A stretch of DNA of 64,000 nucleotides from Tetradesmus obliquus. Taxonomy: Eukaryota > Chlorophyta > Chlorophyceae > Sphaeropleales > Scenedesmaceae. The notes beneath the pieces were generated by a model that searched no databases, had not been told where the DNA came from, and was given only the letters and a program-made list of their open reading frames with translations. Each line of letters starts with the position of its first letter. Within the stretch, counting starts at the first letter, position 1. Of this stretch, positions 3,149-54,751 are shown piece after piece. A program made the position numbers and the translations under genes. The stretch lies in NCBI GenBank assembly GCA_030272155.1, contig CP126202.1:372001-436000 (forward strand), written 5' to 3'.

Positions 3149-5156
3149 ATGCATCTCCAGCCCACAGAAGCCTGTTCCCTAACCGATGCCGGGGGCGCTT
3201 TCGAAGGGCTCCTGCCTGACGCGCTTCTGCTGGACAGCAGCGCCAACGAGATGGCAGCGATGATTATGCAGGAGCTGGAGAGCAGCATCAACAGCACCGA
3301 AGGAGAGGAGCATCATGCAGCAGCCAATGGCTGGGCCAGCCTGCTGCCTGCTGCCAGTGGGACCCTGTCTCCCTCAGCAGCAGCAGGGTGCTACACAGCA
3401 CCCATCGACCACACATGCGCTGGCGCTGGTCCCATCTGGACGGCTTCTCCCTACGCAGTGCAGCAGCAGCATGACCTGGCAGTAACAGCGCCAGCTGCAG
3501 CAGGGGCCTCATCAGACCTTGCAGGACACTCTGCTGCCTCAGGCTGCACCGCAGCAGCAGCAGCAGCGCCCAGCAGCAGCCTCCTGCACTTCAGCCAGCA
3601 CCCAACAGCAGCAGGCCTTGCAGGAATGGCCGGCTGCTCTCCTGTGCCTCTGCTGCTGCCATGCGAGGGCCAATATCCTCAGTTCGCTGCACTGATGCAG
3701 CGTAGGGACAGCTGCGCAGGCGGCAGCAGCACCCTGCACTGCGCCAGCCCCAGCAGCACACCCGCCTTCAGTGCAGGAGGCCCACACTTCCTGTGCACCA
3801 GCGACGACAGCAGCATGCCCTGCGGCGACGCTGCTGCTGCTGCTGCCATCGCTGCCGCCGCGCCGGCGGCTGGAGCGCCGGCTGTGGTGGCAAACAAGCG
3901 CAGGGGGGCTTCGGCACAGGTGCGCCGCTGAGTTAACTTTTCAGACCCAATCAACAAGAGAGCTATTTGAACTGCCCGTCTGTAGCTTTAGCCAGTCGCA
4001 GAACACTCTGCCTTTTCAATTCAGCACTGGTGCGCCGCTGCAGGCTCTGCAGTGCCAGCGTGTGTCTGGCTGCTGAGCTTGGTGAAAATGGCAGTGTGTT
4101 GATGTGCTTGAAGCGTATGCATGTGCTTGTCAAGTTCAGCAGGGCCATGAACACTTCACTGTGGCGAGGTGCAGTGAAGCTGCACAACACCTGCGCTGAG
4201 TTGTTTGCCCTGTGCTGTGTGAAAACCTCACAACACTTGCTGCTGCTGCTGCTGCTGCTGCTGCTGCTGCTGCTGCTGCTGCTGCTGCTGCTGCTGCTGC
4301 AGGCCAACGAGCGCCGGCTGCGCCAGAAGCAGGCAGACGCAAACAACGCCAAGGAGCAGGTGTGCTGCTGCTGCTGCTTCTGCTGCTGCTGCTGCTGCTT
4401 TGTTAGGGTTGCTTGAGTTGTGCAGCTGCTCCTCAAATTGTCAGAACAGCGCATACAACAGCACCTGTGGCATCTCTTGGCTGCTCCCAGTAGCCATTTG
4501 ACCTGCACGTCATGCACCCACAACTTGCCTTCTGACATGTAGAGCCTGCTGCCCCACCCTCCTCAGGTGGCATCACTGTCCGCCAAGGTGGCCTCCCTGC
4601 AGGCCAAGCTGCACAGCCAGCGCGGCGAGACCTCCCACCGTGCTTCAACCTGCCCACCCCTTGCACTGCTCTCATCACACCCTCTCATCTGCATGTGCAG
4701 GTGGCGTCACTGTCCGCCAAGGTCGCCTCCCTGCAGGCCAAGCTGGACAGCCAGTGCGGCGAGACCTCCCAGCTGCTGGCCCGCCTGGCTGACGTCACCT
4801 CCAAGTGGCAGGCCACAGTGCTGGAGAACGCCTCCCTCAACGCCAAAAACGGGGAGCTGCAGGCACAGCTGGGTGAGGTGCAGCACGCTGCCGCGATGAT
4901 GCAGCGGGAGCGGGACGAGCTGCACCGCGCGCTGCAGCAGCAGCCGGCGCTGTGCGCGCAGGTGCAGCAGCAGCAGCAGTCGCGCCAGATGCAGCTCGCA
5001 CTGCTGCAGCAGCAGCAGCAGCAGGTGGCGTGGGCGGTGCCAGGGGAGCATGGCGTGCACCATGCGGCCGGCGCTGCTCACTGGGCCGCAGTGGTGATGC
5101 GTTGTAACACCCAAAAAAAAACCCTTAAAGGTCATCTGGCCAGCTGGTTGGGTTGA
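3149..5156 (+). CDS. bZIP-like coiled-coil protein, three exons
   Basis: Proposed exons are 3149-3919, 4303-4359 and 4701-5156, all joined in phase 0, giving 427 residues. The first exon is Ala/Ser/Gln-rich, with a possible acidic segment near its start (EMAAMIMQELESS), and ends in the basic KRRGASAQ. The 19-codon second exon continues ANERRLRQKQADANNAKEQ. The third begins with leucine-zipper spacing (VASLSAKVASLQAKL) and a long coiled coil up to about residue 350, then Gln-rich sequence. The basic region followed by heptad leucines suggests a bZIP transcription factor, but the invariant Asn of the bZIP basic region is not in its usual place, so bZIP-like is as far as this goes. The first intron ends in about 21 CTG triplets that abut its acceptor. 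The second intron holds a copy of the start of exon 3. An in-frame stretch upstream of 3149 lacks support. Confidence 0.6.
4238..4302 (+). repeat. (CTG)n tract abutting a 3' splice site
   Basis: About 21 uninterrupted CTG triplets run directly into the acceptor CTGCAG before exon 2 of the bZIP-like gene. The run may stand in for a polypyrimidine tract. Confidence 0.85.
4567..4634 (+). repeat. Copy of exon-3 5' edge in intron 2 (bZIP-like gene)
   Basis: This stretch repeats the first 22 or so codons of the exon that starts at 4701, including the preceding CAG acceptor. The peptide is VASLSAKVASLQAKLHSQ, against VASLSAKVASLQAKLDSQ in the real exon. It lies 134 bp upstream, so read-through would be out of frame, and it has no phase-0 donor of its own. 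It is a relic of a local duplication or a decoy acceptor rather than an extra exon. Confidence 0.8.

Positions 5157-54751: not shown

Follow-up and report, generated by a model that had tools for sequence, protein, structure and literature searches.

Direct copies of exon edges in adjoining introns of the green alga Tetradesmus obliquus

The window analyzed here, 64,000 nucleotides (C12:372001-436000) of the 104.66-Mb, 17-contig assembly of the green alga Tetradesmus obliquus (Scenedesmaceae), raises the question of why sequence spanning exon edges recurs in the introns alongside. An earlier note, made from the letters of the window, had described such extra copies in nearly every multi-exon gene. 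Should exon edges be seeds of intron growth, that growth could be measured, because every copy adjoins its own source, and each copy carries two dates, one from comparing exon with copy and one from comparing flank with flank. How local duplication, gene conversion, and splice-site selection balance would then be open to direct test. Intron length varies widely among relatives of this alga without clear cause: in the figures given by PMC5966456, the mean intron of T. obliquus is 462 bp, compared with 230, 302, and 284 bp in three other Sphaeropleales and 270 bp in Chlamydomonas, making it the longest of the five.

The main sample comprised 288,087 bp: the window, 20 kinase loci of 10 kb each, and 7 small loci, with L003 left out because it is contained in L010. 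Exon edges were predicted with a home-made gene finder trained from kinase exon pairs placed by Pfam matches, the training loci being the same loci later tested. The gene finder returned 371 exons, of which 195 were confident and not duplicate-like and supplied 367 internal edges, and it recovered 14 of the 20 seed introns. Its CDPK model on C8 matches the annotated T. obliquus protein OEZ86_014127 with 97% identity, and most compared bounds agree; the exceptions are one acceptor (5637 against 5585) and the terminus at 9093. The SCP2 exon chain, typed without the copies, matches PF02036 over positions 1-101 of 101 (E 2e-24). Several genes in the window were missed, so that window counts are low. 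False mini-exons were called at copies, a warning for the T. obliquus genome as a whole, where gene finders will predict false mini-exons at such places. Two counted edges are probably not splice sites: L024 9094, a point that the annotated protein reads through, and L022 9028, where coding sequence ends. The former was excluded from the count of offsets only; both stay in the other counts, and neither is among the nine island cases described below. A partner with a score of 18 or more was present within 700 bp of 55 of the 367 edges, and the 38 strong, edge-crossing copies among these form the strong set.

Direct repeats and their preference for exon edges

All 26 places named in the earlier note carry a local direct partner, with best scores of 21.2-56.0. 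The null for this check, a single 60-mer against 1200 bp elsewhere, had a 99th percentile of 16.9 and a maximum of 26.0 and is slightly lenient because named ranges were scanned with several probes; four weak places fall below its maximum, 41352 (21.2), 54455 (24.0), 10455 (24.8), and 20466 (25.2). Self-comparison of the 288,087 bp yielded 181 repeat pairs at E < 1e-4, against 1 in 280 kb of Markov-4 sequence, and 97 of the 181 lie in the window, many of them of satellite origin. The assertion that nearly every multi-exon gene is affected proved too strong for the whole sample, where a strong copy was found in 13 of 31 models with at least three confident exons and 14 of the 27 loci outside the window were without any repeat call. 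At 42306-42975 the repeat itself was recovered but no tie to an exon edge was established; it is a 67-bp satellite (42288-42975; ∼10 copies, 96% matches) within a gene called DENND6-like, and a Pfam search with the pieces of this gene that were tried gave no match. A second, large satellite array with periods of 182 and 359 bp occupies 30534-33511. Two neighboring paralogues of the window, A (8.8-13.6 kb) and B (14.6-18.5 kb), differ in that A carries arrays and no repeat cluster was called in B. Copies and repeats located in the window are collected in Table 1.

Table 1. Exon-edge copies and direct repeats in the window (positions are those of the window)
Feature	Position	Strand	Details
Acceptor-edge copy, bZIP-like exon starting 4701	4564..4644	+	offset -134; exonic 72/77, 3 intronic bases
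Direct-repeat array at paralogue A	8809..9650	.	units ∼231-252; placed without exon-edge assignment
Direct-repeat cluster at paralogue A	12209..12734	.	smallest offset 124; placed without exon-edge assignment
Direct repeat	19361..19642	.	offset 124; placed without exon-edge assignment
Weak direct repeat at predicted exon edge, gene called DUF2061	20332..20563	.	offset ∼130
Copy array of donor edge 23796	23129..23714	-	relic donors ∼23672, 23475, 23372, 23129; second exonic 42/42
Copy of acceptor edge 23980 (relic edge 24110)	24059..24121	-	exonic 42/52
Nearest copy of acceptor edge 24656 (relic edge 24778)	24738..24799	-	exonic 41/41, intronic 16/21
Further copies of acceptor edge 24656	edges ∼24902, ∼25023	-	
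Two weaker copies of acceptor edge 39105, gene called DENND6-like	39156..39376	-	relic edges ∼39229, ∼39345; scores 24-25
Copy of SCP2 acceptor edge 47168	47271..47342	-	offset 138; exonic 33/36, intronic 33/36
Copy of SCP2 donor edge 47977	47571..47617	-	offset 401; exonic 40/41 + GTGCGC
Further copy of SCP2 donor edge 47977	donor ∼47776	-	
Copy of SCP2 acceptor edge 48142	48216..48259	-	offset 107; exonic 30/34
Direct-repeat array, gene called MDP-1-like	49449..50230	.	offset ∼112-130; outside gene-finder models
Direct-repeat array, gene called MDP-1-like	50956..51407	.	offset ∼130
Direct repeats, six-exon gene	52928..53780	.	offsets 93-188; placed without exon-edge assignment

Preference for exon edges was assessed with 60-mers laid across each edge. 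A direct copy scoring at least 20 within 400 bp was present on the intron side of 46 of 367 edges, compared with 3 of 365 for direct copies on the exon side and, for inverted copies, 3 of 367 on the intron side and 2 of 365 on the exon side; at a score of 25, there were 39 intron-side direct copies against 0, 1, and 0 in the three controls. About one exon edge in eight in the stretches examined has a short, decaying copy in the same direction in the adjoining intron. The signal peaks at the splice site: among 40-mers centered there, 12.4% of 178 donors and 10.4% of 163 acceptors had a partner within 500 bp, compared with 2.4% of 164 and 0.6% of 163 (donor and acceptor, respectively) for 40-mers centered 60 nt into the exon and 5.4% of 166 and 1.3% of 153 for those centered 40 nt into the intron. 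The rate rises again 80-120 nt into the intron, a second rise that we take to be mostly the copies themselves, and is also up again deep in long exons (140-160 nt; 3.9-7.3% of 82-102). Background rates were 1.8% of 448 in exon interiors and 4.5% of 1282 in noncoding sequence 60-300 bp from an exon, with 0 of 1710 in the null; far noncoding sequence gave 1.9% of 1224 in the kinase loci and 7.2% of 1926 once the window and its satellites were included. The earlier note had proposed comparing edges with exon and intron interiors genome-wide, naming the lack of an excess as its refutation; over the 288 kb, edges exceeded both.

Repeat clusters tell a similar story in the kinase loci, where 25 of 37 touched an edge, against 14.3 ± 2.7 under random placement (0 of 1000 placements reached 25) and 18.4 ± 2.6 when placement was restricted to predicted genes (p 0.008); for small clusters the figures were 16 of 24 against 8.7 ± 2.1. 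In-gene noncoding clusters numbered 3 in the kinase loci, compared with 25-27 at edges. The window alone, with its poor gene models, gave no significant edge excess (7 of 25 clusters against 4.2 ± 1.8, p 0.11), and 16 of its 25 clusters were labeled noncoding. A rotation test of raw coverage was weaker, with 37 of 367 edges against 25.8 ± 5.5 (p 0.03). Smallest offsets of 104-157 were found in 13 of 23 noncoding clusters, like those of edge cases. Copies at start and stop edges, both small classes, numbered 1 of 9 and 1 of 5, with an inverted match as well at one stop edge. The additional loci L029-L033 gave a copy scoring at least 20 on the intron side at 14 of 47 edges, on the exon side at 4, and inverted at 0, counts in which duplicate mini-exons, several of them in L032, were left. 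Of the loci picked by position, L031 had one copy among 8 edges, L032 (presumably a formate-tetrahydrofolate ligase gene) had many copies and some whole-exon duplicates, and L033 gave no gene. We regard it as confirmed that the pattern is real and dense, with a clear excess at exon edges.

Anatomy, arrays, and consequences for the gene

In the strong set, the 18 acceptor copies all lie upstream and the 20 donor copies all downstream, within the intron, with the reservation that two of the "donors" probably do not mark splice sites. In 28 of the 38, the exonic part measures 34-62 nt; offsets fall between 90 and 150 in 22 of 37 cases (median of those, 126), and exonic parts diverge from their originals by up to ∼25%. 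Involvement of both edge types, direct orientation, the spacing, and the differing divergence of copies had all been described in the earlier note and are borne out by these figures. Its term "tandem duplication" is incomplete, since in 14 of 38 strong cases the homology stops 3-11 nt into the intron and the rest of the unit cannot be aligned. Examples with such short flanks are L024 8842 (exonic 50/50), window 47977 (40/41 plus GTGCGC), and L016 6127 (35/37). The note also placed copies just beyond the stop; one case in the sample can be read so, at L022, where by eye a coding end with its stop codon is repeated downstream; a splice site is perhaps not required. Whole-exon tandem copies were seen at L024 6061-6763 (e.g., 6381 and 6644) and L032 1459-2153, and those of L024 are missing from the annotated protein.

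Several edges have more than one copy. The acceptor at L024 8191 has seven, spaced every 115-128 nt, whose exon parts are alike at 36-39 of 40 positions and whose flanks are weakly like the real flank (z 1.4-5.8), one pair of copies agreeing at 47/59; three copies each were found at L028 4411, L022 4921, and window 24656. In four arrays (L021 807, L027 4419, L024 6264, and L006 2567), flank identity to the real edge is 54-58 of 58-60 bases for the nearest copy and is missing from the farthest; in L022 4921 and L028 5237 the shared flank belongs to the second copy. Two copies at L028 4411 have a common flank of 60/60, and their exon-derived islands match the real exon at 39/40 and 34/40. Exceptions are window 23796, where the farthest copy shares the flank (51/60), and L016 7363, where low-complexity flanks blur the picture. 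Joints between blocks are seamless by eye. Exchange between misaligned islands would produce block sharing of this kind; the mosaics are what is seen, and from them we infer the exchange. Nine of 36 strong cases combine at least 90% exonic identity with at most 11 alignable intronic bases, one of them, L018 7688, having flank similarity further out. In 14 island-like cases (15 less L018), flanks are slightly more alike than the flanks of other genes (combined p 0.0036), a residual similarity that comes mainly from window 24656 and 47977. The 25 spacers compared among sampled loci are unlike each other save for weak or low-complexity matches.

A pair of inverted kinase paralogues on C11 (L029/L030, C11:4521001-4537000) shows stretches of 82-100% identity among others of 53-74%, a patchwork that suggests gene conversion between the arms. 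At one donor, paralogue copy B has 94 extra bases, consisting of the edge, an unmatched spacer of ∼54 nt, and then the duplicated edge (∼42 bp); the duplicate keeps the flank found in A, and the exon itself has the new ∼54-nt flank, with uncertain polarity. Such an arrangement resembles an insertion accompanied by a target duplication more than it does an old tandem unit. By eye, ∼5 of 42 positions differ between the two B copies, a higher divergence than that between A and B in the vicinity; the event may therefore predate the paralogue split and have been lost in A. An identical copy of 34 nt is present in B and missing from A at the next donor, where the introns are too diverged to polarize.

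Differences between exon and copy fall on the three codon positions in the proportion 44:56:114 (38 alignments, ∼692 sites each), a ratio near 1:1:2 as expected for a neutral copy and an exon changing at synonymous sites, so the copies look neutral; the exonic part is gapped in 10 of 38 alignments. Coding constraint on the copies was rejected on this codon pattern. At the far ends of copies, the partner splice dinucleotide occurs in 19 of 34 cases, against 0.51 by chance, and the possibility that copies are mini-exons was likewise rejected. The annotated CDPK protein reads each duplicated piece once and skips the copies, whole-exon copies included, and in the two genes checked, CDPK and SCP2, the copies lie within existing introns and the protein continues without them. 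It is very unlikely that selection maintains the copies as functional decoy or alternative splice sites, a role that the earlier note had raised and of which we found no sign. AG or GT is kept in all 38 strong best-partner copies, and islands are more alike than spacers, both as selection on the sites would predict; the first count is, however, biased because alignments ending at a mutated site were left out, and the splice site is lost in other array copies (L024 7476, window 25023, L022 5202, and L006 1354). The codon-position and far-end signals expected of functional sites are absent as well, and the annotated CDPK protein uses no copy. Among introns between confident exons, the median length is 478 bp where a copy is present (n = 22) and 290 bp elsewhere (n = 102; p 1e-5), so that copy-bearing introns are ∼190 bp longer at the median, in line with the lengthening suggested in the earlier note, a difference that could be partly ascertainment since a long intron offers more room for a copy. 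With no role detected, the net effect of the copies would appear to be longer introns containing unused splice-site look-alikes.

How the copies may have arisen

The best reading, to which we give a probability of roughly 0.42, is that the copies come from local duplications and that exchange with the selected exon keeps those at coding edges recognizable. Scattered genic segments would be duplicated, often in units of ∼105-150 bp, by break repair or by slippage during replication. Duplications internal to an exon would mostly be purged because the protein is damaged, and those at coding edges would be tolerated, since an intact edge is left and the only consequence is a longer intron. Extra copies may then keep swapping sequence, both among themselves and with the real edge, by way of the exon-derived island, as the mosaics suggest, so that arrays would expand by whole blocks of island plus spacer, islands being refreshed while spacers diverge. 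Since the exon is held constant by selection, an edge copy would have a lasting master, and purely intronic duplications, lacking one, would fade. Consistent with this are the intron-side excess of direct copies, the peak at the splice site, the neutral codon pattern, the sharing of blocks, and the longer introns. Against exchange with the exon stands the array pattern, which is not uniform (window 23796 and L016 7363), and the escape of spacers from homogenization alongside islands needs an identity-threshold argument. An edge-specific origin would likewise explain why in-gene noncoding clusters are nearly absent in the kinase loci. Exon ends may be a hot spot of slippage, as the earlier note suggested, but selective retention is another possible source of the excess there.

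Birth targeted to edges is the main rival of duplication followed by exchange, and a doubtful one. Breaks or nicks might prefer exon or coding edges through transcription pausing, R-loops, or splice-site chromatin, and staggered-break fill-in would duplicate ∼40-60 bp around ∼50-90 nt of new filler; we consider this unlikely. It would account for the nine nearly purely exonic cases (L018 7688 being the one with similarity further out), for the ∼42-bp duplicate around a ∼54-nt spacer at the C11 donor, and for the scarcity of in-gene noncoding clusters in the kinase loci. Three queries of spacer plus copy against the T. obliquus genome, whose best candidates were their own loci only, also favor it. 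The offsets resemble those of whole-unit duplications, however, slight similarity of flanks persists, arrays grow block-wise, and the C11 copies, with their ∼5 differences in 42, may be older than the paralogue split. Filler of so regular a length (50-90 nt) is not usual. A combined form, in which mutation targeted to exon or CDS edges deposits ∼50 exonic bases in the adjoining intron, exchange with the exon keeps the copies fresh, and introns accrete exon shadows, seems to us unlikely. Tandem duplications are common in general, and ordinary duplication anywhere in genes followed by neutral decay, slower where one copy is exonic, would need nothing more. We simulated this with tandem units of mean length 125 over the kinase gene models, neutral decay, ages uniform to 0.35, and one indel per ten substitutions, at a single parameter setting. 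Edge copies did last longer (766 of 973 edge units detectable, compared with 845 of 1328 intron units), and the window alone, without significant edge excess, would suit such a process. The simulation nevertheless predicts about as many intron-only as edge cases, compared with 3 and 25-27 in the kinase loci (detection differs, by alignment score in the one and BLAST clusters in the other), and it produced the combination of at least 90% exonic identity and at most 11 intronic bases in 19 of 578 edge units and in 1 of 1055 matched units, against the 9 of 36 observed. Judged by this model, ordinary duplication with neutral decay appears to fit poorly; it is already disfavored and quite unlikely. 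Tandem repeats can be misassembled, and an assembly artefact nonetheless has hardly any probability here, given that the exonic parts diverge by up to ∼25% from their originals and that copies occur on many contigs, including the position-picked L032, and differ between paralogues.

Three further candidates were tried and rejected. Templating by mature mRNA (cDNA) would carry spliced junctions into the copies, and 0 of 123 probes cross one by at least 8 bases on both sides, with one crossing by 7. Capture of free fragments predicts inverted copies, which were found at 3 of 367 edges only. A mobile spacer was set aside because the three genome searches above had only the query loci among their best candidates.

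Relation to known duplications and intron gains

Tandem exon duplication, which gives rise to mutually exclusive exons, produces copies that have both splice sites and are spliced. Whole-exon copies occur in T. obliquus too, at L024 6381 and 6644 and in L032, but the majority of copies comprise an exon end and a single splice site, and the annotated CDPK protein leaves out even those that are whole exons. Satellites and minisatellites consist of whole units that are alike, and in the island cases clear likeness is confined to the exon-derived part.

Closely linked duplications of short segments are described in the pertinent passages of PMC2671141 (2009), where those within 5 kb have a mean of 162 bp and a median of 147 bp, include exons and intron splice sites, show filler, deletion, or microhomology at their breakpoints, have no preference for gene density, and are attributed to synthesis-dependent strand annealing. 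The T. obliquus copies resemble these in being closely linked to a short source, with 22 of 37 offsets at 90-150, and differ from the duplications so described in being concentrated at exon edges, almost all direct, arranged in arrays, and present at about one edge in eight. Filler or microhomology at a breakpoint could be looked for in one paralogue pair, that on C11, with its unmatched ∼54-nt spacer and uncertain polarity. In the potato RdRp case, as presented in the relevant part of PMC4974935, a tandem duplication across an intron-exon boundary leaves duplicated splice signals; in the two T. obliquus genes checked, by contrast, the copies lie within an existing intron and no new intron was seen. 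Introner elements, in the account of PMC9860276 so far as it bears on this point, make introns grow by families of elements inserted in many genes. Intron sequence grows here too, each copy being derived from its own exon, and related copies at many loci, the mark of introners, were not found among the best candidates of the three spacer-plus-copy queries. The sections of PMC7955037 at hand make no mention of introns. In the open-licence PMC literature, we found no report of exon-edge copies this dense, nor of a mechanism of intron growth specific to edges. Single duplications across splice sites and births by local duplication and repair are of a known general kind; what is new is the restriction to edges and the contrast between island and spacer.

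Two other parts of the window drew attention. The region 34883-37690 contains a further stretch besides open frames that we take to resemble a reverse transcriptase of LINE type (YADD-like motif), and 35012-35070 on the minus strand gave a tRNA-like Rfam match (35.1 bits; gathering threshold 29). At 58176-62588 lie long, oppositely oriented open frames that by eye seem related to each other and similar to proteins of the polymorphic-membrane type.
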